The notes under the pieces are model-generated. The model was given only the letters and a program-made list of their open reading frames with translations. It did no database searches and had not been told where the DNA came from. From Paenibacillus taihuensis (GTDB lineage Bacteria > Bacillota > Bacilli > Paenibacillales > Paenibacillaceae): a stretch of DNA of 64,000 nt. The stretch is taken from NCBI RefSeq assembly GCF_003386535.1, contig NZ_QTTN01000026.1:3647-67646 (forward strand), in the 5' to 3' direction. Of the stretch, positions 25,880 to 63,828 are shown piece after piece. The translations under genes were made by a program, and so were the position numbers. Every line of letters begins with the position of its first letter. Position 1 is the first letter of the stretch.

Positions 25880-26035
25880 GAGCTCTCCTCCTATGTATTA
25901 AAGATAATACAAGTATATCCAGTGATTGCTGGAAAAAGACGAGTCGGCTTAGAGCATGGTTTGTACTGTTAATCCGAGAGCAATTTAGGTAAGATGCCGT
26001 TGTATAGCACAAGTTGTGGTGACTATTCAATTAAA

Positions 26036-26085
26036 TGCCCGTTAGCGGAATAGGCCGCCGAAAATCATCGGCAGCCTGCTTATTT
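26036..26085. repeat. CCCGTTAG hairpin element 1
   Basis: Left boundary TGCCCGTTAG (26036-26045), then a 10 bp stem AGGCCGCCGA (26052-26061) and TCGGCAGCCT (26068-26077) with one mismatch. No clear right boundary. It lies about 75 bp downstream of the minus-strand gene that stops at 26159. Member of the dispersed family described in the findings. Confidence 0.7.
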
Positions 26086-26158
26086 TAAAAGAATATCTCA
26101 AAGAAAAACAAAACATCCTTTAAATGTTCCGTCCAGAACTAACCTTATTACGACCTGC

Positions 26159-26520: not shown

Positions 26521-26532
26521 TATTTAGATTTA

Positions 26533-27908: not shown

Positions 27909-27921
27909 ATAATTATGAAAA

Positions 27922-28912: not shown

Positions 28913-28936
28913 TTTTGACCTCCATTGGGTTGCAAA

Positions 28937-29580: not shown

Positions 29581-29691
29581 TAATTACCATCTCCCTATAG
29601 GCTGCCGATAAATTGATGGAAAAGATCTCCTTTTATAGACGTTGCTTTTGTTGATTTGTTGCGCTTGAAGTTTAATCACAATTCCTTAATG

Positions 29692-29757
29692 AAAACAAGG
29701 AGCACTTGCGAATGGCAAATGCTCCTTGTTTTGTCACGCTATGTATTCGTTAGGTTA
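29692..29757. repeat. Hairpin element 4 with TTCGTTAGGTTAA flank
   Basis: An 18 bp stem with one mismatch (29692-29709 with 29715-29732), A/T tracts on both sides, then TTGTCACGCTATGTATTC and GTTAGGTTAA (29750-29759). The right flank equals the GCTATCGTGTCCCGTTAGCTTAA end of the family with losses. It lies 11 bp past the stop of the acetyltransferase gene at 29768 and can also act as a bidirectional terminator. Confidence 0.7.
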
Positions 29758-29767
29758 ATAAATCCCT

Positions 29768-30196: not shown

Positions 30197-30248
30197 AATA
30201 ACTCTCCTTATGTTGAAATAATGCTGCATTGGGCAGCTCGTTTTCCTC

Positions 30249-30613
30249 CTAATTACTTAGTTGAAAAAATTCTTTATTATTGTCATTCCAGTTAATTTCC
30301 ACTTCGATTGGCTTAGTCTCGTCAGTTACAATGCAACCTGCGCAACTACGCTGAATTTCAATAATTCTTTCTTTGTAGTCACTCTCTTTACGTACCACTT
30401 TTCCATTAATGGTTTTTCTAAGTTTTTCAGGCCGTTGTCTGTTTCATACTTATAACTAAAGGTGTACTTTCCATTCTCCCTATCTCCTTCAGTGATGTTT
30501 GCAGTATATTCGCCTTTCCAACTAACACCCTCACCGATAAGAGAAATTGACTTATCACTACAACCGACCAGCACCAATACCATGAACAGAACAATAACTA
30601 ATTTGTTCACCAA
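30249..30613 (-). pseudogene. Small lipoprotein gene, frameshifted
   Basis: Starts at 30613 with a lipoprotein signal (LVLVGC) and the conserved SISLIGEGVSWKGEYTANI. After GLKNLEK the frame is lost at an A-rich run near 30420-30430; the continuation TINGKVVRKESDYKERIIEI, SCAGCIVTDETKPIEV and INWNDNNKEFF in another frame ends at 30249. Intact Bacillus homologues join these parts with the same Cys-x2-Cys, so this is one broken gene or a homopolymer error. Confidence 0.75.
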
Positions 30614-30675
30614 GTCCTCCTGTGGGATATTTCAATTTATAAAATATACTCCGAATGGTTGTTAAAAGTTGCACA

Positions 30676-30764
30676 ATCCTGCCCGTTACTTCAATAAAAA
30701 CGGCAGCTGAGTCATTGCCCGCTGCCGTCGTGTTATATTGAGCGATAGTGCTCCTTTAGCTTAA
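30676..30764. repeat. CCCGTTAG hairpin element 5
   Basis: Left boundary CCTGCCCGTTACTTCAAT (30678-30695), stem ACGGCAGC (30700-30707) with GCTGCCGT (30721-30728), right flank ATTGAGCGATAGTGCTCC and TTTAGCTTAA. It lies 44 bp downstream of the anti-sigma gene stop. Closely similar to the element at 61094. Confidence 0.75.
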
Positions 30765-30807
30765 CACCCCACGGCAATAAACATTGCGGCATGAAAACAT
30801 GTGGGAG

Positions 30808-31764: not shown

Positions 31765-32278
31765 GTTCATGCTCTCCTTGTTCAGACTTAAGCAACTTTT
31801 GAAGTTTTCGTCTCGATCGTTCGAACTTCTTCCTGGTGGTTGCGGACGAATAATTAATAATCGCTCCGATTTCTTCAAACGACTTATCCTCTATAATTCG
31901 GAGCACCATAATGGAACGCTCCTCGGAAGATAATCCGGATAACAAACGATCAATGTCCAATGACGATTCCACATGAGCCAAAGAAGCATTCTGAAAGAAA
32001 TCAACATTCCATTCTTGTATGAAAGGTAGTAAGCGGAGCAACCTCCGTTTTTTTAGAATGTTCAAGCAATGGTTATGCGCGATTCGATAGATCCAGTTTG
32101 CTTCGGATTGAATATTTTTCTGATTGTTGAGACTCCTCATCGTTTTTACAAAAATATCCTGACAAGCATCCTCCGCATCTTGGCGTTGCCGGAGCATGTG
32201 ATAACAGTACTTAAAGATAGAATTGTGATATCGATCAATCATGCTCTCTAACCATGTATTGCTGCTGTTGGTTTCCAA
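31736..32278 (-). CDS. ECF-type RNA polymerase sigma factor
   Basis: 180 residues with sigma region 2 (HMLRQRQDAEDACQDIFVKT, then ANWIYRIAHNHCLNILKK) and region 4 (LSSEERSIMVLRIIEDKSF followed by EEIGAIINYSSATTRKKFER). It directs polymerase to a stress or envelope regulon. Starts with TTG at 32278 after AAGGTGGTGAGG. Overlaps the anti-sigma gene by 29 bp. Confidence 0.93.
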   Translation of the reverse strand: METNSSNTWLESMIDRYHNSIFKYCYHMLRQRQDAEDACQDIFVKTMRSLNNQKNIQSEANWIYRIAHNHCLNILKKRRLLRLLPFIQEWNVDFFQNASLAHVESSLDIDRLLSGLSSEERSIMVLRIIEDKSFEEIGAIINYSSATTRKKFERSRRKLQKLLKSEQGEHEHEKTSISYL

Positions 32279-32345
32279 TTCCTCACCACCTTTTAATCTT
32301 TATACTAGTAAAGACAATCAAAGAAATGATAATGTGACCAGAAAA

Positions 32346-32371
32346 CAAAAAAAACCGAAACATTAATCGGT
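32346..32371 (-). terminator. Intrinsic terminator, minus strand
   Basis: ACCGA/TCGGT stem (32354-32358 with 32367-32371) followed on the minus strand by eight T residues. It lies between hairpin element 6 and the ECF gene. Termination of the gene at 32541 would therefore happen after the element, which implies the element is transcribed. Confidence 0.65.
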
Positions 32372-32450
32372 CTTCAGTTCATCATATGGTTGATGCGATA
32401 TCCATCCATTATACACAGTACATCGTTATTTAAGGTATATTGTTAAACTA

Positions 32451-32530
32451 ATCTGCCCGTTAGCGCAACAGGCCACCGATAAAGGGCAGCCTGTTGTAAT
32501 ATTTTCGTTATCTAGTCTACGAAGTTAGGA
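32451..32530. repeat. CCCGTTAG hairpin element 6
   Basis: Left boundary ATCTGCCCGTTAGCGCAACA (32451-32470), stem CAACAGGCCACC (32466-32477) with GGCAGCCTGTTG (32485-32496), two mismatches; degenerate right flank TTTTCGTTATCTAG and GAAGTTAGG. Ends 11 bp before the stop of the gene at 32541. Confidence 0.75.
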
Positions 32531-32540
32531 ATCACTCATA

Positions 32541-32969
32541 TTAGCCTAAACTCTTGAGCCAACTTTTATAGAAATTTAATTGCTCGTCAATGCTTACAAA
32601 AGTTAGATCGTTATCACATTCAAAAATATCAACCAAATCACTTGTCTTTGCCTGTCTTCCAAAAGTTAACCTGTAAGCTAAGCGTCCTGCCCCCATGGAC
32701 AATGCCATTGGCGATGGATAAACATTTAACGCTGCCCCATTACACTTGATTTGTATATGACGTTCCTCCAGGTGTTGTCTGAGCTGCTTCAATGCATCAA
32801 AGAAGTTCTCGCTTTTGAAACTTATTTGTTCTTCACCAACTCTTATACTTAACAAAACCTTATCCTCGTCATCTGGTGCCTCTTCATACACTTCTAAGTT
32901 CTCCTTAGATTGAGAACCGTCTTTCCAACGGAAATAAACTAACTTCTCTTCTTTGGACAAATAAAACAC
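32541..32969 (-). CDS. Hypothetical protein, 142 residues
   Basis: Soluble alpha/beta protein. The C-terminal half (IQIKCNGAALNVYPSPMALS, AGRLAYRLTFGRQAKTSDLV, LNFYKSWLKSL) matches a family I have seen in Bacillus and enterobacteria, often beside toxin-immunity or mobile genes, but I cannot name it. No catalytic motif. The first codons FYLSKEEKLVYFRWKDGS begin at an ATG at 32969. Adjacent to another unknown gene 22 bp upstream, likely cotranscribed. Confidence 0.6.
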   Translation of the reverse strand: MFYLSKEEKLVYFRWKDGSQSKENLEVYEEAPDDEDKVLLSIRVGEEQISFKSENFFDALKQLRQHLEERHIQIKCNGAALNVYPSPMALSMGAGRLAYRLTFGRQAKTSDLVDIFECDNDLTFVSIDEQLNFYKSWLKSLG

Positions 32970-32991
32970 CTCTTTGATCCTTCAGCCGCTT

Positions 32992-33366
32992 TCATTGGAT
33001 GGCTGTTGTAGTTAAACGATCGTGCCCGTTCAATCCACGGTCCTCATCTATAATCCATGAGAGCTCTTTAGAAATAGCAATTGCAACGTTAGAAATGTCG
33101 GTTTCTATGATGTCATTACTGTAGTTAGGTAAATCTATCTCAATTAAATTCACTTCTTCAATACCCTCTAGCGTGTCATACGCGTAGTTACCATTTAGTC
33201 CAGCTGGAATACCTCTTAGTCTGATACTTTCTCCATGGAGTGCTTTGCAAAATGTTAGATGGCTTACTTTTTGAAAACCCAAAATATTAACTAAGTAATT
33301 TTCTAATATTTTTGATTGTACTTTCTCAGTGTAATTCTCAGAATGGATGCTTATATAAGCATACAT
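32992..33366 (-). CDS. Hypothetical protein, 124 residues
   Basis: Starts MYAYISIHSENYTEKV, soluble, alternating beta and helix (VSHLTFCKALHGESIRLRG; SNVAIAISKELSWIID). Family not recognised. The ATG at 33366 sits after GAGGTGAGG; the longer reading from 33396 has no site. Probably in one transcript with the gene at 32541. Confidence 0.5.
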   Translation of the reverse strand: MYAYISIHSENYTEKVQSKILENYLVNILGFQKVSHLTFCKALHGESIRLRGIPAGLNGNYAYDTLEGIEEVNLIEIDLPNYSNDIIETDISNVAIAISKELSWIIDEDRGLNGHDRLTTTAIQ

Positions 33367-33440
33367 TAACCTCACCTCACTCCTCCAAATTCGCAATGCA
33401 TCAGTGGTCTTCCTTCTAAAAGCATTGGCTCATTAACGTA

Positions 33441-33517
33441 AACTGCCCGTTAAAGGAATAGGCTGGCGAGTCGATAGCAGCCTGTTCCCGTTGCACTATC
33501 TTGACTGTTAGCTGTTA
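33441..33517. repeat. CCCGTTAG hairpin element 7
   Basis: Left boundary AACTGCCCGTTAAAGGAATA (33441-33460), stem TAGGCTGGC with TAGCAGCCT around GAGTCGA, right flank TTGCACTATCTTGACT and GTTAGCTGTTA (33507-33517). Both boundaries are recognisable. It lies 14 bp before the stop of the gene at 33531. Confidence 0.75.
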
Positions 33518-33530
33518 CAAAAGTATAAAT

Positions 33531-52501: not shown

Positions 52502-52591
52502 TTATTTACATATTATCTCCACACCAAACTTTTTGTTCACCCGTAAGGTCTTAGTCTTACGGCCCTAATTGTAAAGGAGAGTTTAATCGTC

Positions 52592-53107
52592 ATGTTTGCT
52601 TCCCATTCTTCAAAGGAAGTGCTGCAATGCATCTTGCTACACAAAGATAACGCTTATCGTTTGGCATATACATACGTCAGAAATCCCGATGACGCGCTGG
52701 ACATAATTCAAGAGGCCATTCAGAAAGCTTTAGCAGCTTCAAAGTCACTTAAAGATGTGACCCAGTCGAAGAGTTGGTTTTATCGCATCGTTATAAACAC
52801 TGCGTTAGACTTTTTGAGAAAGCAGAAAAACGTCGTTACGCTAGACGTGGAGACGCTTGAAACCTTTGGGTTAAGCTCACAAGATGCATACAAGGACTTT
52901 GATTTGGAGTCAGCGATGAGTTTGCTCCCTCCTCTTTATCGAAGCGTAGTCGTGCTTCGGTACTTCGAAGACATGAAAATTGAAGAAATCGCCCAAGTTT
53001 TAAACGAAAATGTCAACACAATCAAGTCGCGATTATACGAAGCTCTTCGAAAATTGCGCTTGTTCATGAACGATGAAAACTTGAATAAGGTGGATGGCAA
53101 TGGTTAA
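52592..53107 (+). CDS. ECF-type RNA polymerase sigma factor, SigV-like
   Basis: 171 residues with region 2 (AYTYVRNPDDALDIIQEAIQ, then SWFYRIVINTALDFLRK) and region 4 (LPPLYRSVVVLRYFEDMKIE, EIAQVLNENVNTIKSRLYEA). Its partner just downstream has the extracellular domains of RsiV, so the nearest known model is SigV of Bacillus, which answers lysozyme. ATG at 52592, eleven nt after AAAGGAGA. Its stop overlaps the anti-sigma start by 8 bp. Confidence 0.93.
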   Translation: MFASHSSKEVLQCILLHKDNAYRLAYTYVRNPDDALDIIQEAIQKALAASKSLKDVTQSKSWFYRIVINTALDFLRKQKNVVTLDVETLETFGLSSQDAYKDFDLESAMSLLPPLYRSVVVLRYFEDMKIEEIAQVLNENVNTIKSRLYEALRKLRLFMNDENLNKVDGNG

Positions 53108-53978
53108 CAAGATGACCGAACTGAAGCGACAATATAGCGAAATACCTGTCCCCGAGGGTCTGGACATTATTGTGGATGAAGCAATTCGCAAGCATCTCCA
53201 TAAGAAAACGATACGGATTCGATGGATAGCTGCTGCAGCTGCAATTGTGACCTTGTTTATCTCTGCTTTAAACGTGAGTCCCTCATTCGCGAGTGCGTCT
53301 TCGAAGTGGCCCGTAATCGGCCCCATCGCTAAAGTACTAACTATCCGCGAGTACAAGGTTGAAGAACCCACTTATAAAGCGCATATTCATGTTCCGGCAA
53401 TTACCGATCTTGGAGACAAGTCGTTAGAGCAACAGCTGAACGACAAATATTCTGCGGAGAGCAAGCGGCTATACGATGAATTCATGTCCGAGGTCGAGGA
53501 TTTGAAGAAAGGCGGCGGTGGAGAAGCAGGTGTTGAAAGCGGCTATGTTGTCAAAACCGAAACGGATCGCCTGTTATCCGTCGGACGCTATGTCGCGAAT
53601 ACCGTAGGTTCTTCCTCCACCACATTCAAATACGATACGGTCGACAAAGTGAACCATGTGCTCATCACGCTGCCGAGTCTATTTAAAGACGATCGGTATA
53701 TCGAGATCATTAGCAACAACATTAAGGAACAAATGTTAGCGAGAATGAAACAAGAGAAGAACGCGTTTTTCTGGGTTTCCGGGAATGGCCAGCCTGAGTC
53801 GGACATGAATTTCAGATCAATTGAGAAGGATCAAAATTTCTATATTAATTCTGATAATAAACTGGTCATTTCCTTCGATAAGTACGCTGTCGCTCCAGGA
53901 TCGATGGGCATAGTCGAATTCGTCATACCGACGGAGCTATTAGTTAACGAACTGGTTAATCAAGAATACGTAAAATAA
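53100..53978 (+). CDS. RsiV-like anti-sigma factor (DUF4163/DUF3298)
   Basis: 292 residues: a cytoplasmic sigma-binding N-terminus (about 1-40), a membrane helix (WIAAAAAIVTLFISAL), then DUF4163-like (about 85-190) and DUF3298-like (about 195-285) domains with FFWVSGNGQPESDMNFRS and LVISFDKYAVAPGSMGIVEF. In RsiV these outer domains bind lysozyme and trigger stepwise cleavage. The start is set at ATG 53100, after AAGGTGG; the ATG at 53094 is too close to the site. Function by homology; ligand not proven. Confidence 0.85.
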   Translation: MVNKMTELKRQYSEIPVPEGLDIIVDEAIRKHLHKKTIRIRWIAAAAAIVTLFISALNVSPSFASASSKWPVIGPIAKVLTIREYKVEEPTYKAHIHVPAITDLGDKSLEQQLNDKYSAESKRLYDEFMSEVEDLKKGGGGEAGVESGYVVKTETDRLLSVGRYVANTVGSSSTTFKYDTVDKVNHVLITLPSLFKDDRYIEIISNNIKEQMLARMKQEKNAFFWVSGNGQPESDMNFRSIEKDQNFYINSDNKLVISFDKYAVAPGSMGIVEFVIPTELLVNELVNQEYVK

Positions 53979-54068
53979 TTCCGTATCAGAGAATTCATCC
54001 AAACTTTTTCGCAAGGTGACCCGTCATAGCTATGTGCATCCCACAATAAGCTTACGGAGGTCATTTCC

Positions 54069-55040
54069 ATGAAGAAAAAGACTGTTATCGCTGCAGGGTT
54101 AGCCGCAACCATGACATTAGGGCTCGCGGCTGGTGTTTACGCATCTGGGCAATTGACCCAAGTGAAGGCATTCTTAAATCCGTCCGTACACGTTAATGTA
54201 GGCGGAAGCCAAGTCGAATTAATAGATCAAGACGGCTCGGCAGTGACGCCTCTCGTTTATAATAACCACACGTATTTGCCCGTTCGCAGCGTAGCTAGAC
54301 AACTCGGTTATGACGTGTATTGGGAAGGATCCTCACAGACGGCATATTTCACCCCCAAGAGCGAGTATCTCGAGTATCGAGCAGATGAGCGATTGATATT
54401 GGACAAATACGGATACTCCTTGCAGATTCCGTCATCGTTTGGCGGCAAGCTTCGACCGACTGTATGGCCGACCGAAACGGTCGCAGACGGAATTAAGTCC
54501 GGAGCATTGTCAGCGGGCGCTCTTAGCGCGATCGACTTGCTTTACTTGCCGCAGGATGCAGCCTCCCCTGAGGCACGTGTTCTCGCTACGGTTGAGGTTA
54601 TTGATCAGGCAAATTGGAGTGCAGAGAGCCACGATGTTAAAGACTCGGTGTTGGGAACTAAAGGCGAGTATGTGTACGTCCTCAGAGATGCGAAGGAGAA
54701 TCCGTTCGGGGTAGGCACACCGGACAACGCAAGTTACAAGGCAATCGTCGATCATTTGACAGCGAGAGGCTATGATCTGGTCCTCACGCCGGCCGTTTCG
54801 GCAAGCGCGGATATCGTATCTAAGCTAGTCGGCTCTTGGACCGAATCGCGCAAAGGAACGGTAATGGAGTTGACTGCAGACGGCGTCTTTTATCGTGCTG
54901 GTCAAGCAGTTGGGAACTACTTGATCATTGACTCTTCTCATATCCGTATCGTAGCGGACATGTCTGATAGTACGGTCGAATTCGTTGTAAACGGAGATAC
55001 ATTAGAGTTGGCCGGTCAAACGTTCGCTAGGAATAAATAG
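54069..55040 (+). CDS. Secreted stalk-domain protein (copper amine oxidase N-terminal-like)
   Basis: 323 residues: signal peptide to about residue 26, a short Pro-Ser-Val-His-Val-Asn linker and a stalk domain (about 40-95; PLVYNNHTYLPVRSVARQLG followed by YDVYWEGSSQTAYF). A middle domain (about 100-245) is followed by a lipocalin-like C-terminal barrel (LVGSWTESRKGTVMELTADG). The stalk domain is common on Paenibacillus surface proteins. ATG at 54069 behind ACGGAGGTC. It follows the RsiV-like gene in the same direction and may belong to that sigma's regulon. Confidence 0.82.
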   Translation: MKKKTVIAAGLAATMTLGLAAGVYASGQLTQVKAFLNPSVHVNVGGSQVELIDQDGSAVTPLVYNNHTYLPVRSVARQLGYDVYWEGSSQTAYFTPKSEYLEYRADERLILDKYGYSLQIPSSFGGKLRPTVWPTETVADGIKSGALSAGALSAIDLLYLPQDAASPEARVLATVEVIDQANWSAESHDVKDSVLGTKGEYVYVLRDAKENPFGVGTPDNASYKAIVDHLTARGYDLVLTPAVSASADIVSKLVGSWTESRKGTVMELTADGVFYRAGQAVGNYLIIDSSHIRIVADMSDSTVEFVVNGDTLELAGQTFARNK

Positions 55041-55053
55041 AACACAATAACAA

Positions 55054-55089
55054 GAAGGATGCTCAATCCAAACGGGATCGGCATCCTTC
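55054..55089 (+). terminator. Intrinsic terminator of the stalk-domain gene
   Basis: GAAGGATGC (55054-55062) pairs with its complement (55081-55089); the loop contains an ATCC/GGAT inner stem. ATTTAGTTATTT follows. Confidence 0.75.
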
Positions 55090-55129
55090 ATTTAGTTATT
55101 TCATATTTATTAGAGTACTTATTGATGAA

Positions 55130-55215
55130 AACTGTCCGTTAGCGGAACAGGCTGCCAATTTAGAGTTGGCAGCCTGTTCTTTGTTATGTTTTCGGTTCTC
55201 ATTCTCCATTAGCTC
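55130..55215. repeat. CCCGTTAG hairpin element 9
   Basis: Left boundary AACTGTCCGTTAGCG (55130-55144), a perfect 14 bp stem GAACAGGCTGCCAA (55145-55158) with its complement (55166-55179), right flank TTTGTTATGTTTTCGG and CCATTAGCTCA. The right end touches the TGA stop at 55214. The T-rich side faces the gene's stop, the wrong side for a minus-strand terminator. Confidence 0.8.
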
Positions 55216-55579
55216 ATTCTTCAGGATTTTCCCAATCCTCATCTAAAACTAATTTGCCTGTCTTATCTCTAATAAAAGCAGTACCTGGTGGAGAATCAAG
55301 AAATTGAATAATATCCAAATCATAATTACATATCGTATTGACTTGGTAAACGGCATGATATTTAGGATTACTCATATAATTTTCATCCTCATCACCAGCC
55401 ATAAACCGCCACCCACTATCTGGATAACTAGAACTCGGTTCTTCTCTGTACATAAACCCAACCTTACTACCATCAACTGTTATCCTGTCAGTTGCAATAC
55501 ATCCTTCTTCAGATTCAATTAATCTTTTTATTTTATCTCCAGGGATTTTGTACTTTTTCTTTTTATTAAACCCAAACAT
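55214..55579 (-). CDS. Hypothetical protein, 121 residues (DUF2185-like)
   Basis: Starts MFGFNKKKKYKIPGDKIKRL; contains EEGCIATDRITVDGSKVGFM, YREEPSSSYPDSGWRFMAGD and NYMSNPKYHAVYQVNTICN. This order (a gatekeeper-like first strand, SGWRF-x-G-D-E, then NTICNYD) is that of DUF2185/immunity-protein-like families. Likely cytoplasmic. The start at 55579 follows AAAAAGGGG; the longer reading from 55705 passes through degenerate element sequence and is rejected. Confidence 0.68.
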   Translation of the reverse strand: MFGFNKKKKYKIPGDKIKRLIESEEGCIATDRITVDGSKVGFMYREEPSSSYPDSGWRFMAGDEDENYMSNPKYHAVYQVNTICNYDLDIIQFLDSPPGTAFIRDKTGKLVLDEDWENPEE

Positions 55580-55711
55580 ACATTTGCCCCTTTTTATTGC
55601 ATATCGTTCAACCTCAATAAGATTCGCGATACCTAACACACTATCCTGCCTGTTTTGCGAAATGAAAATGGAGCAGTTGCGGATCTCGAACTGCATATAC
55701 CTCATCGAACT

Positions 55712-55801
55712 ATCCTGCCCCGTTCAACGAAACACAATAGCTGGCTAGATGCCCAGCTGCCGTCGTGTTGTAATAGGTGATAGTGAGTATCCTATTAGCG
55801 C
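55712..55801. repeat. CCCGTTAG hairpin element 10
   Basis: Left boundary ATCCTGCCCCGTTCAACGAA (55712-55731), stem AGCTGG/CCCAGCT (about 55739-55757), right flank GGTGATAGTGAGTATCC and TATTAGCGCAA. The TAA stop of the gene at 55795 lies inside the right boundary (TTAGCG). A further boundary-like ATCCTGCCTGTTTTGCGAAA lies at about 55643-55662. Confidence 0.7.
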
Positions 55802-55986
55802 AACCATGTGGTTAACGGTTTATCATCCCAAATTTGTACTTCTATGTACCTCTCAGGTCCATTTTTCCCCTGAGTATTCCATTCCTGGGGTAACCCGAAT
55901 TCATTAATTACATGATAAATCTCATTTAACGTATACACCTGACCTCGATATTTCTTCCCATCTTGATACCTCATGGTTGGAAACAA
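55795..55986 (-). CDS. Hypothetical protein, about 63 residues, possibly truncated
   Basis: Reads RYQDGKKYRGQVYTLNEIYH, then VINEFGLPQEWN and RYIEVQIWDDKPL. The family is not recognised. The start is uncertain: TTG 55986 and ATG 55974 both lack a ribosome site, and the open frame continues upstream for a few codons, so the N-terminus may have been lost. Confidence 0.4.
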   Translation of the reverse strand: MFPTMRYQDGKKYRGQVYTLNEIYHVINEFGLPQEWNTQGKNGPERYIEVQIWDDKPLTTWLR

Positions 55987-56152
55987 GTCTACATACGTAA
56001 AACTTAATGTCTATTACTGCATGTGTAATGACACCTGACGGAAAGGAGATTTGTACGTTTCCTACTAAGACAGTCTCTTTGTTGCAGTTAATAGACTAGA
56101 TAAGAAACCATGGCTGTACGCATGTCGCAATGGAAATGCTACTATTTAATCA

Positions 56153-56214
56153 TTGACGCCAAAAAAATAATAAGTTAAAATCGCAAAGGTAAAATGATAA
56201 TGATTTTCATTCTT
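56153..56214 (+). promoter_or_regulatory. Promoter with Fur box upstream of the FTR1 gene
   Basis: -35 TTGACG (56153-56158), a 17 nt spacer and -10 TAAAAT (56176-56181). GATAATGATTTTCATTCTT (56196-56214) matches the classic 19 bp Fur box at 15 positions and covers the expected start site, so iron-loaded Fur should repress. Confidence 0.75.
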
Positions 56215-56247
56215 GGTTTTGTATTTATAGCTAAGGTGGGGTAACCA

Positions 56248-57711
56248 ATGCGTTTTATTACAGGAATTATTGCCTTACTTTCGCTTATGCTCGTGTTTCC
56301 TCCAGGTGCGTACGCTTCAGGCTCTGGTGTTGAGAATATGACTAAGCTTAATGTCTACATCGAGAGAGCTCTCGATCAAGCGGGCACCGATTTGAAATCT
56401 TCTAAAAAATCGTATGATCAGTTCCATGACCAGTGGCTACAGGTGGAAGGTACCATCAAAGCCGATTCAGTGGACGCGTACAAGGACATCGAATCGCAAA
56501 TGGGACAGGTCGAATACGCCTATATGACCGAAAAGTCTAAAGACGCCAAAACGGCTCTTCAAGGCTTGGAACAAGCGGCCGAAGACTTTATTGCTGGAAA
56601 ATATGGCAAGTCGACCGATTCGACGGACCAAGATTTGTCGCTCTCCGATTTTATTCATTTGCTGCAGCAGATTAAAGATAACGTACATGCGCAAGATCAA
56701 CAGCAATCGCTTGAAGCGATCTCGAAGGCTCGGGAAACTTGGCTTAGCGTAGAAGGAATCGTCGTGGCGCAATCGGCTTCCGTCTACAGCAGTTCGGAAC
56801 GGGACATGGTCGTGATCCAAGCGATGGTCAAGGATCAGAAATTCGACAACGCAGAGAAAACGACTGACGATATGATCGCCTATCTTACACCGCTTAGCCA
56901 AAAGTCCGCTTATACGTTCTGGGATGCAGCCATGATTCCGATCCGTGAAGGCTTAGAAGCGTTGCTCGTCGTAGGAGCGCTGCTCTCTTTTGCGAAGAAA
57001 TCGAATAAAGGGCATGGGAAAGTGTGGATCTTATCCGGTGTCGGCGCCGGTCTTGTTCTTAGCACGATTCTAGCCATCATCATTAAGGTTGTATTCTCAT
57101 CGGGAGCCTTTGGCCGAAATAATTTCATTATCTCGGGCTGGACAGGAGTTTTCGCTGCAGCCATGCTTCTTTACATGAGCTACTGGCTGCATAGCAACTC
57201 CAACATGAATCAATGGAATAGGTTCATCAAATCCAAAACCGAAACAGCGATGAGCACGGGACGGGTAGTCTCTCTCGGCCTTCTATCATTCCTGGCGGTG
57301 TTCCGCGAAGGCACCGAAACAGTTCTGTTCATCATCGGCATGATCAATCAAATTAGTGTGCAGCAGCTGCTATTGGGGATGCTGATTGGTTTTGGGTTTT
57401 TAGCGGTACTCGCGTTTCTCATGCTCTATGTAGGATTCAAATTGCCGATCCGTCCGTTCTTTATGATCTCGAGCTTGATTGTATTCTACTTATGCATCAA
57501 ATTTATGGGCCTTGGCATTCACAGCTTGCAGCTTGCGGGGATCGTGCCAGTATCGAACTCGTCAACGCTTCCGAGCATTGATTTTATTGCCTTCTACCCA
57601 TCTTGGCAAAGCTCGGCACCGCAACTGGTAATCACGTTATTTGCGATCGGATTCTTAATCATGGGCCGTTTGCGCAAGAACAGATCCAAAGCACAAATTG
57701 CAGCAACCTAA
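56248..57711 (+). CDS. FTR1-family iron permease (EfeU-like)
   Basis: 487 residues. Signal peptide to about 23, an extracellular helical domain (about 25-215) and a seven-helix FTR1 domain holding both REGLE-type motifs: IREGLEALLV (about residue 231) and FREGTETVLF (about residue 352). Their Glu residues carry iron through the membrane. It brings iron into the cell together with an extracytoplasmic partner, here probably the lipoprotein encoded 26 bp downstream. ATG at 56248 behind GGTGGGG. Controlled by the Fur box just upstream. No EfeB peroxidase gene is present. Confidence 0.92.
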   Translation: MRFITGIIALLSLMLVFPPGAYASGSGVENMTKLNVYIERALDQAGTDLKSSKKSYDQFHDQWLQVEGTIKADSVDAYKDIESQMGQVEYAYMTEKSKDAKTALQGLEQAAEDFIAGKYGKSTDSTDQDLSLSDFIHLLQQIKDNVHAQDQQQSLEAISKARETWLSVEGIVVAQSASVYSSSERDMVVIQAMVKDQKFDNAEKTTDDMIAYLTPLSQKSAYTFWDAAMIPIREGLEALLVVGALLSFAKKSNKGHGKVWILSGVGAGLVLSTILAIIIKVVFSSGAFGRNNFIISGWTGVFAAAMLLYMSYWLHSNSNMNQWNRFIKSKTETAMSTGRVVSLGLLSFLAVFREGTETVLFIIGMINQISVQQLLLGMLIGFGFLAVLAFLMLYVGFKLPIRPFFMISSLIVFYLCIKFMGLGIHSLQLAGIVPVSNSSTLPSIDFIAFYPSWQSSAPQLVITLFAIGFLIMGRLRKNRSKAQIAAT

Positions 57712-57737
57712 TAAACTATCATTTGGAGGACTTATCA

Positions 57738-58109
57738 ATGAAGCAATTACTAGCTGCACTAATCCTTGTTCTGGCTTTAACACTTTCCGGCTGCGGATCC
57801 AACAAAGCGGATGACACTGTCAAGAAGGGCGCGAATGATTTGATCAGCGTTACGGATGATCTTCAGAAGGAAATCGAAGCCGGCAACGAAGCGAAAATCA
57901 AAGAACTCGGTCCAAAATTGGAGGACGTTTGGTCTTCTTTCGAGGATAGTGTCAATAAAGACTATGCGGATTACTACGAGAAAATCGAAGAAAGCTTGAA
58001 TCCGGAAGTTGCCGCATCGAAAGCAAACCCGATCGATATCAAACTCGTTGGAAAATTGAACGAGAGCTTGAATAAAACGCTGACGGAATTAGTGCAAAGC
58101 ATCAAATAA
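57738..58109 (+). CDS. Small helical lipoprotein, FTR1 companion
   Basis: 123 residues. The signal peptide ends in LTLSGC (lipidated Cys). The rest is charged and helical (VTDDLQKEIEAGNEAKIKEL; KLEDVWSSFEDSVNKDY), similar in style to the N-terminal helical domain of the FTR1 protein and to EfeO/EfeM iron-binding parts. No known iron motif is certain. ATG at 57738 behind TTTGGAGGA; it shares the Fur-controlled transcript. Role in handing iron to FTR1 is inferred from position. Confidence 0.7.
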   Translation: MKQLLAALILVLALTLSGCGSNKADDTVKKGANDLISVTDDLQKEIEAGNEAKIKELGPKLEDVWSSFEDSVNKDYADYYEKIEESLNPEVAASKANPIDIKLVGKLNESLNKTLTELVQSIK

Positions 58110-58268
58110 TGTGAAAGTAAATACGGAACGAGCTCCTCAGGCAACGTTATGGAAAAGTAGGATTCAACTTTTCTAATTTCACTTTCATTCGCAGCTGGAT
58201 CGCATTCTAAAACGAACTAAACTGGGTTTGTGATTTGCGTTTTACGAACAAATTCGTTCATCCTCATA

Positions 58269-58313
58269 ACAAAACCTCCCAAATTTAGCTTCGCTAAATT
58301 TGGGAGGTTTTGT
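58269..58313. terminator. Strong bidirectional terminator
   Basis: A perfect 21 bp stem (58269-58289 with 58293-58313) and a 3 nt loop, A-rich before and T-rich after. It ends the iron operon. The rest of the 363 bp gap to the next gene shows nothing else of note. Confidence 0.88.
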
Positions 58314-58472
58314 CTGCTTCAGTGATATCAAGCAATTAAAGAACTTTATTTTAAACAAGACTCATTTCAGACCCGTCAACAAATTAACTCTAATTCACGA
58401 CCTCGATATCCAAAGTAGTAATGGATATTTTATGAAAATTAAGAATTTGCAGTAGATCTTCGCATAAAAGTC

Positions 58473-58745
58473 TTATCTTAACTCATCTGTGTCTTTAGCT
58501 TTTCTAACGAACTTTATATCTGCTACAAACTTAATACTACCGTCGCGAGTATAGTTACTTAGTTTAAATGGGTTTATTATCTTTCCCTCCACCATATACC
58601 CCCAACTATTTAAAACAACATCAAAATCAAATGCATCAGATACAAGTTCTTCAAAACCACCATCAACACAAACTGTTATTTTAAGAATGTCACCTTTCTT
58701 AATATCAATATTTTTCTTATGAAAAATCTTTTTTAAATTTTGCAT
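58473..58745 (-). CDS. Hypothetical protein, 90 residues
   Basis: Lys-rich N-terminus (MQNLKKIFHKKNIDIKKGD), then a beta-rich body (ILKITVCVDGGFEELVSDAF; GYMVEGKIINPFKLSNYTRD). No family recognised. Low GC. ATG at 58745 after GGAGACGC. Lies between the iron operon terminator and the IS110 element. Confidence 0.5.
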   Translation of the reverse strand: MQNLKKIFHKKNIDIKKGDILKITVCVDGGFEELVSDAFDFDVVLNSWGYMVEGKIINPFKLSNYTRDGSIKFVADIKFVRKAKDTDELR

Positions 58746-58879
58746 GCGATGCGTCTCCGTTATTCAATATCAATTGCATTAAAGTACCCGTCCCTCGGTT
58801 TTAAGGGTTTATCTCACATATACTCACTCATTCGCAGGATTTCATCACCTTGAATTCATCATGCAGGTGGGGAAAGTTA

Positions 58880-59146
58880 GAGGCGAGTGCCGTCTGGCCA
58901 TTATTTGGGTATGCGGGAACAGGAGAATCGCACTAGCCATTCCCTTACGCTTCATTCTACTGCACGCAAACTCTACAAGTGCCCTGGTGTTTACCATCCC
59001 ATGACTCGACGGGTCTATGCCCTAACATTCCATCGTCATACTTATCCAAGGTGTGGAGACCGATTGCGTTTAGCGGACGGGTCTAAGCCCTTTTCGGGCA
59101 CGAACTCGGTTCTCAATGCTTTCTTTGTCAAAATCCCGCGAACGAG
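58880..59146 (-). ncRNA. Candidate bridge RNA region of the IS110-family element
   Basis: Non-coding and about 50 percent GC amid AT-rich neighbours. It holds two near-identical 16-mers, GACGGGTCTATGCCCT (59008-59023) and GACGGGTCTAAGCCCT (59076-59091), 68 nt apart, plus GCCC/GGGC hairpins. IS110-type recombinases use a bridge RNA with two loops that pair with donor and target; a repeated core in two loops fits that idea. Position 3' of the transposase fits the IS1111 group. Inference only. Confidence 0.35.
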
Positions 59147-60440
59147 TCAATATACGTGACGGTTCATCACCTTAGGCTGCTTGTGAAACGAGATAGCTGG
59201 CTTTTTCCGGAGAGAGGTTTCAGCCCAATGGACCATACCGATCAGAATTCGTGCCACTTTACCCACAAGCTTGAAGACAGACTGTTGCTTTTTCATGTGT
59301 TTTACTTGAACATTATGCTGATGCAATTCTTGAAAGATCGGATTAACTCCGATGAGTTGAATGGTTGCTAAGTATAGATATTTCCTTAGGTTGGAATCCC
59401 CTCGTTTGGAGATGACGATCTGCCCTTTCCTTTTTCCCGACGTGCTTTCTGCCAGATTCAGACCGGCATTGCGCAGTAACTGACGCCCATGAGCATACTG
59501 TCTTAGGTCACCTGCACCTGCTAAGATGGCCGCGACGAATATTGGACCAAATCCCTTAATGGAACGGAGCTGAACGGCCATGGGGATCTAGATGCTTTTC
59601 TATGTCTGCTAACATATCCATAATTCGTTCGAACTCTGTAATTAGACGCACAAAATCTTGCTTTGCTTCGGTTAAGGCTGTTACGTCTCCTACACTCCGC
59701 CTAGCTTGCGCAAGGAGCTCAGCAGCCTTTTGTATGCCTGTAGTGCTGCCTGCCCTTTGCATATGTTTTCTCCACATCGAAACGATCTCCGGTGTTGACC
59801 GTCCAGCAAGATCCTGCGGCGTAGGCAACTCCTTCAACGTTGCCATAGAACGTTTGCAGGTCCAATCCTTGAATACCAAACTGAACTCCGGGAACCGAAT
59901 ATCCAGCCACTGAATGATTCGATTTTGCAGCCGAACGCTATTGGTAACCCAAAATTCTCGATCACTCATCAGCGTTCGAAGACGCTGGAATACATGTGTC
60001 TGTTTGGTATGTTCATAGTAGAAGCCTCGACTTACTACATCTGCTATGACAAGTGCATCTTTTGGGTCGCTCTTCGATTGGCAGTTGTCGCGGTTTTCTT
60101 TATTGCGCTTTGTCGTTGCTGGATTGACTAAGACGACTTGCAATCCTTTATGGGTAAGCCAGTTGGCCAAGTTCCACCAATAATGGCCTGTTGGCTCCAT
60201 ACCAATGATTACTTTGCTCATACGATGCTTTTGCTGGAGGTCTTCCATCCACCGGTGCAGCTTTTCAAATCCCTCGATGCTGTTGCTAAACGATACATGT
60301 CGATTCGTGAGCACGATTCCACGATAATTCGTAACCTGTGCCACATGTGTTTCTTTGGCCATGTCGATTCCAACGATGAGATGCGAGGTGGTAATTCGTT
60401 CAATTCGTTGATTTTGAGCTTCCGATTGTTTAAACTTCAT
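59147..60440 (-). pseudogene. IS110-family DEDD transposase, one-base frameshift
   Basis: The N-terminal frame (ATG 60440, behind AAGGAGGCGC) carries the DEDD RuvC-like domain: VGIDMAKETHV, IGMEPTGHYWW and KSDPKDALVIADV. It stops at 59556. The C-terminal Transposase_20 domain, with SIKGFGPIFVAAILAGAGDL and the catalytic Ser region GLNLAESTSGKRKG, is in another frame to 59147. Removing one C from the CCCC run near 59578-59581 fuses them into a normal-length protein of about 430 residues. The element is therefore probably dead unless that base is an assembly error. Confidence 0.85.
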
Positions 60441-60568
60441 AACAAGAGCGCCTCCTTGATGTGTTGTGGACAAACCCATCATACCGAGGCGCTCCTTTTT
60501 TGACAAAGGCCATTTCTTAGCCTTAACAGGAATGTTTATTTGAACGCCGAATCGTCGTTTCCAACTAG

Positions 60569-61042
60569 CTACTCAACTTGATTAACTAAATTTATTAGTT
60601 CATTTTGAGTTAGTTTATTTTCTCCTAATGGCCCCAGATGGCCGTTGGCGTTAATGTAATACACAAAGCGAGCTATAAATCCATTCTCACTTTCCCACCA
60701 TATCGACTGACTATCCTCATCTTCTTTATAATAGGCAAGTATCCCGTTTTCGAGCTGTATAGACTGCATTTCTTCGCTATCCGATAACGTATCAAGTTTG
60801 CCAATAATAACCTTGCTCAAAATGTATCTTATTTCTTGGCCAGTCTGCTTATTTTTATAATGGAATACAAATTGGTGAAGGTTATCAATTTCAATTTCAG
60901 TGCGAACCTCATTTACTTCAAACGGGAATTTTGAGGGTTCAGTGAAATCATAAAGCATCGAGTTGGTTCTGACATCCGTCTGCTTAACGCCATTACATCC
61001 ACTTATTAAACAACAAAGTAGTAAGAAAATAATAAAACGAAT
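60569..61042 (-). CDS. Small lipoprotein, probable ATT start
   Basis: The frame is open from 61042: RFIIFLLLCCLISGC is a clear lipoprotein signal with lipobox LISGC, followed by NGVKQTDVRTNS and a 130-residue domain (FPFEVNEVRTEIEIDNLHQF; YILSKVIIGKLDTL). No ATG, GTG or TTG lies before the signal; an ATT at 61042 sits six bases after GAGGGGGG. The obvious ATG at 60958 would delete the signal peptide. Either a rare ATT start or a mutated ATG. Family not recognised. The IS110 element lies just downstream and may have replaced its hairpin element. Confidence 0.6.
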   Translation of the reverse strand: MRFIIFLLLCCLISGCNGVKQTDVRTNSMLYDFTEPSKFPFEVNEVRTEIEIDNLHQFVFHYKNKQTGQEIRYILSKVIIGKLDTLSDSEEMQSIQLENGILAYYKEDEDSQSIWWESENGFIARFVYYINANGHLGPLGENKLTQNELINLVNQVE

Positions 61043-61093
61043 TCTAAGCCCCCCTCATGGTTTAGTGCCTATATATTACCGCAAATTGGAACT

Positions 61094-61182
61094 GTTCTGC
61101 CTATTACTTCAATAAAACGGCAGCTGATCATTAAACCAGCTGCCGTCGGTGTTATATTGAGCGATAGTGTCCGTTAGCTAAT
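61094..61182. repeat. CCCGTTAG hairpin element 11
   Basis: Left boundary TTCTGCCTATTACTTCAAT (61095-61113), perfect 10 bp stem ACGGCAGCTG (61117-61126) with its complement (61137-61146), right flank ATTGAGCGATAGTGTCC and GTTAGCTAA (61173-61181). About 80 percent identical to the element at 30676, 30 kb away. It ends about 10 bp before the stop at 61191. Confidence 0.82.
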
Positions 61183-61190
61183 CAATTTAG

Positions 61191-61595
61191 CTATCCTTCA
61201 ACTAATTGATAAAATCTAATGTCGCCTTTTTCTGTTTCAACTATCAGTATGTCATTTCGCTCTTTGACACGGAATATCTTTGTTCCCACTTCCAGTTTAT
61301 TTGCTGTTCCGTTTTTAAAATCTTTACTAACATTACTTTGGTGACTGATTTCAGTTACTTGTACGTCTTTGGTTAAATTTAACTCGTCTACCCATGACAC
61401 TCCTGCATTATATATGGTGTCTCTATACATAAAAATATTAGCATTCGAATCCATTCTTAAAACTTCTTGAGCAGTTGGATTTCCAGTTGTAGTATTCACA
61501 CTCTGCTGTTCTGAAATTTGCTTGATGGGTTCTTTTCCGCAACCAATCAACAAAGAAAAACTACATATTACAACATATATAATATTCCTTTTCAC
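61191..61595 (-). CDS. Small lipoprotein, 134 residues
   Basis: Signal peptide ending in LLIGC; mature part has VLRMDSNANIFMYRDTIYNA, VSWVDELNLT and ANKLEVGTKIFRVKER, then DILIVETEKGDIRFYQLVEG. I recall Bacillus/Paenibacillus lipoproteins with this pattern but no named function. GTG at 61595 is preferred, eight bases after AAAGGGGGG; TTG 61598 is possible. Hairpin element 11 follows the stop. Confidence 0.65.
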   Translation of the reverse strand: MKRNIIYVVICSFSLLIGCGKEPIKQISEQQSVNTTTGNPTAQEVLRMDSNANIFMYRDTIYNAGVSWVDELNLTKDVQVTEISHQSNVSKDFKNGTANKLEVGTKIFRVKERNDILIVETEKGDIRFYQLVEG

Positions 61596-61676
61596 CAAAT
61601 TGTCCCCCCTTTACATATCCATTAATTGAAATTGAGACGTGGAAATCCTCTTGAATGTTGCAGCCTTTATTCAACT

Positions 61677-61752
61677 CTCCTGCCCGTTAACGCAACAGGC
61701 CGCCGAATACTAAGCCTATTCTTCGTTGTGCTATCGAACCTGGTTAGCTTAA
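61677..61752. repeat. CCCGTTAG hairpin element 12
   Basis: Left boundary CTCCTGCCCGTTAACGCAAC (61677-61696), partly lost stem (AGGCCGCCGA left arm, only AGCCTATTC on the right), right flank TTGTGCTATCGAACCTG and GTTAGCTTAAG (61743-61753). Both boundaries clear. It lies about 35 bp before the stop at 61788. Confidence 0.72.
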
Positions 61753-61787
61753 GTACATTGAATTTCATAATCTAAGCTTCAATCAAA

Positions 61788-62225
61788 TCAAACTATACAT
61801 ACTTTATGAAACCCTTCAGACACCGTTGGAATTTCCAGACTATTGTGCATTCTCATTATCGCAGTATCAGAAACTGGCTTATCTCTTAGACTGTTTCTTT
61901 TACGGCAAACCTCAATCGGTGTACTTATGTAATAACAAATTTTTTCACAGTTAGAATATCTCTTTAAAGCAGCTACTCTTGTTCCTGATGCAACATTTGT
62001 AGCATCAAGTATGACGCTGATTCCCTTTGTTATATTATTAAATGCCCTAGTATATAATTCATTAAATACAATAGGATCAATCTTTTCATCATAACCACCA
62101 GGAAATAACTCTTCTTTTAATGCATCCGAAGACAGTATTACCGCAGTTTCTTTAATAGCTAATTCCTTTGCGAATGTAGATTTCCCTGCTCCGGGCAAGC
62201 CAACTAACATGATTAACTTAGACAT
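61788..62225 (-). CDS. P-loop kinase, T4 polynucleotide kinase/zeta-toxin-like
   Basis: 145 residues. Walker A GLPGAGKST at residues 9-17, an Asp in ILSSDALKEELF (proposed general base), ILDATNVASGTRVAAL as the second conserved block, and the lid Arg/Lys in EVCRKRNSLRDKP. Family members phosphorylate nucleic acid ends, small molecules or UDP-GlcNAc; the target here is unknown. No antitoxin gene is next to it. ATG at 62225 behind AGAGG. Flanked by hairpin elements 12 and 13. Confidence 0.85.
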   Translation of the reverse strand: MSKLIMLVGLPGAGKSTFAKELAIKETAVILSSDALKEELFPGGYDEKIDPIVFNELYTRAFNNITKGISVILDATNVASGTRVAALKRYSNCEKICYYISTPIEVCRKRNSLRDKPVSDTAIMRMHNSLEIPTVSEGFHKVCIV

Positions 62226-62370
62226 ATCATTTCCTCTCTTTCTTTTGTCTTACTTTTAGACACACCTCCTAGTATCAGTGACCCCGCTCCTCTCAATTTG
62301 TGAGTATAATAGTTTCACTCTTCTGTCCGTTTGTTGAGCGGATCACTTAGAATCGAAAGCAAGCGATGGA

Positions 62371-62450
62371 CTGCTGTTTATCGGAACAGGCTGCCGTTTT
62401 TATGTCGGCAGCCTGTTATCTTTTCTGCTATTGTGTCCCGTTAGTTGAAT
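62371..62450. repeat. CCCGTTAG hairpin element 13
   Basis: Left boundary ACTGCTGTTTATCGG (62371-62385), perfect 12 bp stem AACAGGCTGCCG (62386-62397) with its complement (62407-62418), right flank TTTTCTGCTATTGTGTCC and CGTTAGTTGAA. A lone left-boundary remnant (TTCTGTCCGTTTGTTGAGCG) lies just before it at about 62322-62341. Confidence 0.8.
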
Positions 62451-62474
62451 CGATTATTGCTCAATGCTTCTCAT

Positions 62475-62636
62475 CAAGCACCCAGCTACCACCGGCAAAC
62501 TGCTCCATGATTCGTTAAACAAAAGTTCCGAGTTACATCCCTTGTCATCGAAACTAGGAGATACAGCTATTCGTGCTTGTCTGAAAGACAAGATAAAGGA
62601 ACATCCGTTGCTGGATGGCCCTAATTGAACTATCGT
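62475..62636. other. Non-coding gap with element remnant and plus-strand gene scrap
   Basis: ACCGGCAAACTGCTCCATGA and TTCGTTAAAC (about 62494-62522) match parts of the elements at 27922 and 29692. After it, a plus-strand frame reading GDTAIRACLKDKIKEHPLLD to a stop near 62628 looks like the tail of a lost gene. No start is present. Confidence 0.35.
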
Positions 62637-63506
62637 TTATAGCTCATGGATAGTAATCACATAGTAACTAGATTCTGCAGTTATCTCAAACCCTACGGAA
62701 TGATAGAGGTTTAGTGCACGTCTATTTTCAGTCACTACTCCAAGTCGAATTGTAGAACACTTCTGCTCTAGTAAAAGTTTAACTACACCAGCAAGAATTT
62801 CACGACCGTATCCTCTACCCTGTTGTGATGTAAGTACACATAAGTCGTGAATAACAGCAGTGTCCTTGTTCACCCAATTGACTCTGATCATCCCAACTGG
62901 CGACAGGCTGTCCAAAGCGATGTAAGTCACTCGTTCAGGTTCTATAGTGCGAGCAAAATAGTTCCTAGTCCATGTCTCTGAATCGCCAAAGGCTTGCGAT
63001 GAACATCTAACCATAAATTCCAAATCTTGATTTTCTGCTAATTGTAAAGTCAAGCCCGAACGACATGATATATCTGCATGTAATTGATTTAGATTCATGG
63101 AGAACTCTGACGTTCTAAAGATTGCGCCTATATGCTTTATGAAGTCTATACCTGGCTTCGAATTCGATGGTATACGAAAGCGGCAGGTTTCGATGCCCTG
63201 TGTTAACATTTCGGACATCGCACGTTTTAGCAAAGCTTTAAAAACGCCTTGTCGACGAAAGCCCGGATGAACCATCCCGTTAATATTAGCTTCAGTCCCA
63301 TCGGAAGTATACCAACTTACAAACCCTATTAACTGACGACCGAGAAAACAAAGGTATGCCTCGTCTCCCCCTATAGCTTTAAGGCTTTCTACGCCCACCC
63401 TCAAACTAGACCTATCATTCGTCTTGCATAGTTGCTCCAACGTTCGAATTTGATCTATCTGATGATTGGAATAGTCCATCATTTTAATACTTTGATATCC
63501 TTGCAC
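62637..63506 (-). CDS. GNAT family N-acetyltransferase, two-domain
   Basis: 289 residues with two GNAT halves. The first has INGMVHPGFRRQGVFKALLK; the second has IHDLCVLTSQQGRGYGREIL, both acetyl-CoA loop motifs, and ends with ENRRALNLYHSVGFEI. Such tandem GNATs include mycothiol-synthase-like and antibiotic-acetylating enzymes. It starts with GTG at 63506, ten nt after GAGGG; the ATGs at 63482 and 63479 lie too far from a site. Substrate unknown. Confidence 0.87.
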   Translation of the reverse strand: MQGYQSIKMMDYSNHQIDQIRTLEQLCKTNDRSSLRVGVESLKAIGGDEAYLCFLGRQLIGFVSWYTSDGTEANINGMVHPGFRRQGVFKALLKRAMSEMLTQGIETCRFRIPSNSKPGIDFIKHIGAIFRTSEFSMNLNQLHADISCRSGLTLQLAENQDLEFMVRCSSQAFGDSETWTRNYFARTIEPERVTYIALDSLSPVGMIRVNWVNKDTAVIHDLCVLTSQQGRGYGREILAGVVKLLLEQKCSTIRLGVVTENRRALNLYHSVGFEITAESSYYVITIHEL

Positions 63507-63686
63507 TTATTGGTTGCCCTCATTAATAAGGAAATACGCAGTTTATGGACGATTAGGCGCTATCCTTTTAGTTTCTGTCCGCTTGTTCAAGGTTACCATT
63601 GAAACCGCCTCCTCGATAATGGTGACTATATTCTTCACTAAATACTGATAAAAGTCAAATGTCTCCAAAGAACTGCCTTTAAACTA

Positions 63687-63768
63687 TTCTGCCCGTTAGC
63701 GGAACAACCTGCTGGATCATTTCAGCAGGCTGAGTTATTGAAGTATCGTGTCCCGTTAGAGCTTAATG
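63687..63768. repeat. CCCGTTAG hairpin element 15
   Basis: Left boundary TTCTGCCCGTTAGCGGAACA (63687-63706), stem CCTGCTG (63708-63714) with CAGCAGG (63723-63729), right flank AGTATCGTGTCCCGTTAG and AGCTTAATG. Both boundaries keep the full CCCGTTAG. A lone left-boundary remnant (TCTGTCCGCTTGTTCAAGG) lies at about 63573-63591. It follows the partial gene stopping at 63829. Confidence 0.8.
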
Positions 63769-63828
63769 AACTCTGTTGAATGCCTAATACATGAATACAG
63801 TGTTAACTGATGATCGCGATATATTGCT

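Follow-up and report, generated by a model that had tools for sequence, protein, structure and literature searches.

A tract of minus-strand genes and intervening hairpin elements in DNA of Paenibacillus taihuensis (positions 55,130 to 63,768 of a 64,000-nucleotide stretch of contig NZ_QTTN01000026.1, the whole of which is called the window below) is very probably an orphan array of a gene-cassette system. In this system, recombination would take place at directly oriented sites of ~26 bp and would be carried out by IntP, the name given here to a Xer-like tyrosine recombinase of the arrays of relatives. Comparison with these relatives shows three kinds of unit: a gene (from an R site to an L site), a terminator-like hairpin (L to R), and a recombinase unit, where the IntP gene replaces the hairpin. 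An initial annotation, made from the letters of the window, had listed a cassette-like succession of minus-strand genes and elements and proposed a cassette system bounded by CCCGTTAG. The order is present as listed, and a covariance model built from relatives recovers the elements. The proposal of a cassette system is supported, but its boundaries are two differing sites of ~26 bp and not one 8-bp repeat.

Each element is a pair of recombination-type sites, L and R, in direct orientation around the hairpin. The L site reads TTnnnCTAAn-CTGCCC-GTTAGCTnAA and the R site TTnAnCTATC-GTnCCC-GTTAGnTnAA. Both are imperfect inverted repeats in which a 6-bp spacer, CTGCCC in L and GTnCCC in R, separates two inverted arms of ~10 bp, and they have the short two-armed organization of dif-type sites. 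In 133 L sites, the left arm agrees with the reverse complement of the right one at 5.2 of 10 positions (2.9 when scrambled), and 82 of these sites carry the CTGCCC spacer. R-site arms agree at 4.0 positions (2.7 when scrambled), their register being loose and their spacer variable in length. The hairpin between L and R has a median score of 22 over 354 elements; for the first 150, the score is 23 vs. 13 in shuffled sequences. It is flanked by A-rich DNA on the left and T-rich DNA on the right, as in a two-way terminator. The elements of relatives have conserved ends with variable hairpins between them. Two covariance models were used. R1 was built from 28 aligned elements, with no pairs between outer arms, and gave 180 matches at E<=1 in 41 loci. 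R2 was rebuilt from 150 matches, window elements included, and then run on array loci. A search with Rfam gave no match at the gathering threshold in six array loci and one sub-threshold match in the window.

Two other repeats were seen next to the sites (below, numbers preceded by G designate genomes and those preceded by L loci). In G222, G253, and G227, a second unit family of ~200 bp, starting with GTTAGCTTAATGAAATTGCATGG, follows L sites in many copies and is poorly caught by the model. A 1.79-kb repeat starting at an R site is 84-90% alike in L042, L045, L046, and L120; its identification as a group II intron was considered and dropped, no Rfam family reaching the gathering threshold.

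The arrays are found across the Paenibacillaceae. Among 394 genomes of the family, one per species, 296 contain elements under strict filters. In 50 loci (R2, E<=0.1, overlapping matches removed), 410 of the 414 elements share the strand that prevails in their locus. The longest open reading frame (ORF) of each interval between elements, the only one tabulated, is directed towards the R site in 186 of 217 intervals of 250-1500 bp and the opposite way in 19, whereas 12 have none of 60 aa; the mean length of these ORFs is 178 aa. According to the initial annotation, elements usually start 0-60 bp after a stop codon. This holds in general, with 129 of 186 ORFs in the 50 loci stopping -15 to 60 nt from the R site (median 33), but in the window the acetyltransferase stop is ~197 nt away. 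Individual arrays can be long, as in G352 (44 elements over 56 kb, with one 11.6-kb gap) and G222 (36 elements over 116 kb, with a 55-kb gap). Cargo was sampled from 150 of 198 ORFs; once three IntP copies were removed, the remaining 147 gave the Pfam families GNAT (7), AAA_33 (4), NUDIX (4), glyoxalase (4), DinB (3), methyltransferase (3), and APH (3), with many others once or twice. This is the spectrum familiar from integron cassettes. With PADLOC, two families are hit at E<=1e-5, by four and three of the 147 proteins.

The same units are found in new surroundings, where they end at the sites. Among 234 homologous stretches devoid of IntP (at least 200 bp and 70% identity), one copy or more has a site no further than 22 bp away at 123 left and 36 right ends, the expected number being ~14 by a rough estimate from site density. 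The initial annotation had asked whether relocated whole units have their junctions inside the repeat. Units in different surroundings indeed have them there: of 57 homologous stretches without recombinase (at least 90% identity and 200 bp), 45 fall in register on the motif at their left end, but only 9 at their right end; a shuffled-motif control gave means of 5.4 and 2.2. When the ends are aligned, similarity between copies is confined to one side of the site, the other side being unrelated DNA. For the ten left-end pairs with identities of 96% or more, the first mismatch is found at -7 to +3 relative to the first C of CCCGTTAG. These alignments place the junction within the site, either in the 6-bp spacer or at its edge beside GTTAG, as in integron-type cassette exchange at a repeat.

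Some units consist of a gene alone (R to L). The kinase unit of the window (61743-62331) has two copies in G352 at 91%, themselves 98.9% alike. Another unit is present three times in G222 (96.6-97.1%), and a further one is common to G222 and G253 (96%; the site is recognised in one copy at each end). Others carry a gene and a hairpin: L-to-L units link G312 with G192 (87%) and G286 with P. hemerocallicola (85%), and an R-to-R unit links G227 with G192 (90%). Because the sites are direct along the whole array, R-to-L, L-to-L, and R-to-R units are all explained. The initial view that the moving unit is a gene plus its element fits some units, but the gene often travels alone, both boundaries of the element being sites of the same direction. 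Three large L-to-L differences inside G222 are blurred by repeated unit families and were not used as proof.

A recombinase, which the initial annotation had suggested looking for, is present inside the arrays of relatives and is itself coded in such a unit. IntP (query from L082, 281 aa) contains the patches TGCRVGE, GKGSKQR, HRFRH, and LGH..STTQIY, which are expected of the tyrosine recombinase family. It occurs in 102 of the 394 genomes at E<=1e-30, distant matches of 30-37% included, often in several copies and often broken. At E<1e-70, it occurs in 62 genomes (counted by eye), 60 of which have elements. Twenty-two near-complete copies picked among the top matches (L082, L119-L138, and L140) are all read in the direction of the cassette genes. 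An R site is recognised after the gene in 16 of them (score of at least 13 of 18) and an L site before it in 10 (at least 11 of 14); shuffled flanks reach these cut-offs in 10 and 5 of 1100 cases, respectively. With L before and R after it, the IntP gene of these copies occupies the place of the hairpin. For IntP-containing stretches (296 ends of high-scoring segment pairs, HSPs, per side), an L site lies within 30 bp of the start in 92 and an R site within 30 bp of the end in 120. Each of the 22 loci has 1-16 elements, and 10 of 12 control loci around other tyrosine recombinases have none at E<=1 (exceptions, L071 and L084). XerC-like proteins of L069, L071, and L072-L074 had first been suspected as the array recombinase; they belong to another group and became controls. 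No element match was found in L142, a locus cut by a contig end. With NCBIfam models, IntP scores 188 bits for XerC (cut-off 335) and 186 for XerD (330), and its nearest solved relatives are XerD and XerA. A conserved leader hairpin encloses the ribosome site GGGAGG of IntP (by eye; for example in L132 and L134), which suggests translational control. In the G253 super-locus, ~440 bp are missing from the interior of the IntP unit at positions 8481-9039, possibly a step from recombinase unit to short unit.

We propose that IntP would bind the arms of any two sites and recombine these in double-stranded form, in the manner of XerC/D at dif. The DNA between two direct sites would then be released as a circle with one intact site: a gene alone from R x L, a hairpin alone from L x R, a gene and a hairpin from L x L or R x R. 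Such a circle could re-enter an array at any site. With less certainty, the hairpins may act as two-way terminators that insulate the units, and IntP expression may be held low by the hairpin that covers its ribosome site.

In the window, CCCGTTAG occurs seven times, always on the plus strand, whereas 1.1 copies are expected and none of 100 shuffles reaches seven. Allowing three mismatches, the left end has only seven matches in the 6.79-Mb assembly, six of them on the contig of the window; the elements are therefore local. Six elements alternate with the minus-strand ORFs 55214-55705, 55795-55986, 60569-60958, 61191-61598, 61788-62225, and 62637-63506. The features are as follows, with R1 E-values for a 757-kb search, this model being built from relatives only:

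55122..55224, plus strand: element with an L site, a hairpin (inverted repeat 55145-55179), and a decayed R site (R1 E 1.6e-7)
55214..55705, minus strand: gene unit, Imm33 immunity-like protein of 163 aa (PF09951, E 6.7e-33)
55705..55810, plus strand: weak element whose R site contains the stop codon of the next ORF (R1 E 0.19, R2 E 0.0092)
55795..55986, minus strand: ORF of 63 aa (gene 55795 of the initial annotation)
58251..58313, minus strand: probable remnant of the start of IntP, with start codon and ribosome-site hairpin (blastn; inverted repeat 58269-58313)
58473..58745, minus strand: ORF of 90 aa without a Pfam family
58787..60538, minus strand: IS110-family element that interrupts the array; its transposase is split over two frames (PF01548, PF02371)
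60569..60958, minus strand: gene unit, lipoprotein-like as first annotated, without a Pfam family
61087..61189, plus strand: element with L and R sites (R1 E 1.4e-6; sites by position weight matrix, PWM)
61191..61598, minus strand: gene unit, likewise first annotated as lipoprotein-like, without a Pfam family
61670..61759, plus strand: element with a clear L site and a diverged R site (R1 E 2.4e-5)
61743..62331: mobile gene unit from R to L; G352, which belongs to another genus, has two copies at 91%, with unrelated flanks
61788..62225, minus strand: small P-loop kinase (AAA_33), cargo of the preceding unit (PF13671, E 9.1e-21)
62361..62456, plus strand: element with a decayed L site, a hairpin (inverted repeat 62385-62417), and an R site (R1 E 1.9e-7)
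62637..63506, minus strand: gene unit, GNAT acetyltransferase with two stretches (PF00583, E 1e-23)
63679..63773, plus strand: element with L and R sites (R1 E 2.2e-9)

Another array, in a more decayed state, occupies 26026-33523 of the window:

26026..26108, plus strand: element (R1 E 0.0027)
30669..30771, plus strand: element (R1 E 4.2e-6)
32443..32527, plus strand: element (R1 E 1.5e-5)
33433..33523, plus strand: element (R1 E 2.9e-6)

Mapping of the ORFs agrees with the initial placing of the stop codon of gene 55795 inside the boundary repeat. IS110-family copies are also present in L119, L127, and L039, where their right end adjoins the start of an element, which is reminiscent of IS1111 insertions in attC.

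The array of the window has its own history. The initial annotation saw no integrase gene, and indeed tblastn with IntP finds no match in the window, the window contig has no tyrosine recombinase match, and no IntP is found in the genome at E<=1e-30. Positions 58251-58313 match the 5' regions of IntP genes by blastn (L119, E 5e-7 and 3e-5; L120/L121, 8e-6; E-values for the window alone; G319, Cohnella lupini), and they are probably a relic of the IntP start and its leader hairpin, the rest of the gene being absent. With IntP decayed, the array would be passive unless helped in trans. Blocks flanking the array are common to the window and G303 (83-91%); in G303, the peptidase block is followed by an intact IntP and another array, which has only 127 bp in common with that of the window at E<=1e-20. 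With shared flanks and differing arrays, it appears that array content turns over while the neighbourhood stays. In G322, the block is present and the site matches are weak and scattered (80 kb scanned by PWM). A 2.6-kb sigma-factor block (52514-55102) stands elsewhere in the G303 order; it was considered as a cassette and discarded, there being no sites at its borders there.

Several observations weigh against the cassette system proposed here. Ninety-eight of the 394 genomes have no element match, and two of the 62 genomes with IntP at E<1e-70 (G186 and G240) have no element under strict filters. No recognisable R site is found at 6 of the 22 IntP copies and no L site at 12, and in L121 and L124 the sole element match is the border of the IntP unit itself. 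Right ends of shared stretches are rarely at a site (36 of 234; 9 of 57). The shuffled-motif control is imperfect, since single site-like shuffles reach 34 left and 20 right ends. HSPs are not independent: the 45 left-end events correspond to 18 distinct downstream 12-mers, several of them from one ~200-bp repeat family. The first mismatch scatters from -12 to +13 at these 45 left ends and from -14 to +10 at the nine right ends, so that the exact exchange base is not fixed; this scatter is partly due to later mutation. Within a gene unit, the arms show no covariation (696 of 2000 shuffles as high), the terminator role is deduced from hairpin quality and A/T flanks, and the whole comparison is one of sequences, with one genome per species.

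A divergent integron, with the elements as attC sites recombined as a folded bottom-strand substrate and IntP as integron integrase, would also account for the array layout, the hairpin element after the stop codon, the GNAT, NUDIX, glyoxalase, and phosphotransferase cargo, and the tyrosine recombinase. GTTAG near the junction resembles the G^TTRRRY of integrons, and two of six inner-arm positions pair above shuffled values (0 and 4 of 2000 shuffles as high). However, two other positions are below shuffled, and for the inner arms overall 206 of 2000 shuffles are as high (402 model-fitted rows, those under 78 nt dropped and opposite-strand shadow matches kept). An element's own outer arms are not complementary to each other (1304 of 2000; 345 elements). 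In an earlier test on 133 of 293 elements, 467 of 5000 shuffles were as high for next-unit arms. Covariation over the whole structure does exceed shuffles, helix 1 (the inner arms) included, in an alignment fitted to that structure. The two boundaries had first been read as boxes of one attC; this was given up, the arm-pairing tests being without overall support. The initial annotation had likewise held the boundaries to be unlike attC, and arms as a whole show no covariation between the two boundary sites; by eye, the consensus GTTAGCT/AGCTAAC is close to the attC boxes RYYYAAC/GTTRRRY and does not fit them. In addition, IntP scores only 91 bits, in two pieces, with the integron integrase model TIGR02249 (cut-off 265), against 188 with XerC. 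IntI4 (2a3v) aligns with it only in two pieces, between which IntP has ~25 residues where IntI4 has ~65, ~40 being missing; the IntI-specific insert is absent. Where an integron would have attI beside its integrase, part of the IntP copies are flanked by L- and R-type sites. Finally, genes move without the hairpin. A divergent integron is thus improbable.

Somewhat less probable still is that the elements are derivatives, similar to miniature inverted-repeat transposable elements (MITEs), of a 1-kb IntP insertion element, scattered between genes that stay in place. Conservation is indeed highest for the 1-kb IntP block, whose ends often coincide with an L and an R site. Yet with MITEs only the element changes place, whereas here gene-only units recur in new surroundings with their ends at sites, and the single strand and gene-element order of each array are not expected from free insertion. 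Shuffling of genes by homologous recombination between repeated intergenic hairpins could draw on abundant repeats, some longer ones lying beside sites. It is very improbable: the junctions fall inside a site of 26 bp, one side of which borders on unrelated DNA, RecA needs homology longer than 26 bp, and a recombinase is linked to the arrays.

Cassette exchange by IntP may not be confined to the Paenibacillaceae. Nine plasmid records encode IntP relatives (35-53% identity, seven at about 50%), in Peribacillus, Niallia, Sporosarcina, Cytobacillus, and one host labelled Arthrobacter citreus. Of four Bacillales plasmid loci fetched, with recombinases ~50% identical, L181 and L182 have the array layout, with minus-strand short genes, NUDIX and GNAT among them, and their own versions of the sites (L181, L TTCAACTAAnCTGCCAT and R ACTAACGCATCAGTTAGTTGAATAAG; L182, L ACCTGCCCCGTTAG and R AAAGCACCCGTTAGTTCAAC); in L180 and L183 the layout was not established. 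In L181 and L182, too, L and R sites flank the recombinase, which here has the opposite direction. The sites differ along with the recombinase in the two loci. At 15421-16749 of L181, an annotated group II intron reverse transcriptase lies inside the plasmid array. IntP relatives on five phage records are at most 36% identical, and no recognisable elements were found near a relative in Clostridium lacusfryxellense (38%, L143). The system may reach further, with other sites.

We consider it likely that these arrays represent a third kind of cassette system, independent of integrons and dif modules and Bacillales-wide, with a mobile Xer-like recombinase that is itself an array unit, double-strand recombination, and two compatible site types. 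If so, Gram-positive soil bacteria have gene-stockpiling arrays such as integrons give Proteobacteria. Many small Paenibacillaceae genes (GNATs, NUDIX proteins, glyoxalases, phosphotransferases, immunity proteins) would be explained as an exchangeable pool crossing genera, and a recombinase with defined sites makes the system directly testable. No description of arrays of this type in Paenibacillaceae or Bacillales was found in the open-licence literature of PubMed Central, bioRxiv not being covered, which is no proof that none exists. The IntegronFinder 2.0 article reports one complete integron in Firmicutes (Limnochorda pilosa) and a few clusters of attC sites lacking integrases (CALIN), and calls integrons very occasional there, for reasons said to be unclear (PMC9024848). 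A widespread cassette system of another kind in Firmicutes would bear on this rarity: the capacity would exist, built from other parts.

Compared with integrons (IntI/attC/attI, and sedentary chromosomal integrons), the arrays have the same long one-direction series of short genes, a hairpin after the stop codon, a tyrosine recombinase, and a similar cargo. They differ in a Xer-like recombinase without the IntI insert, in two simple sites without overall covariation, in genes that can travel without the hairpin, and in a recombinase coded inside a unit. The dif/pdif modules of Acinetobacter plasmids (XerC/XerD) also have genes between short Xer-type sites that are shuffled as modules. Those modules rely on the housekeeping XerC/XerD, with dif-like sites of alternating orientation, and are mainly found on plasmids. 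In contrast, the present arrays are chromosomal, carry a recombinase in relatives, although host XerC/XerD may act as well, and have two site types, hairpin units, and a single orientation per locus in place of the alternation of dif modules. XerA, XerC, and XerD are the nearest solved and named relatives of IntP, which falls below the curated cut-offs of their models and, often multi-copy and broken, behaves like a mobile gene.

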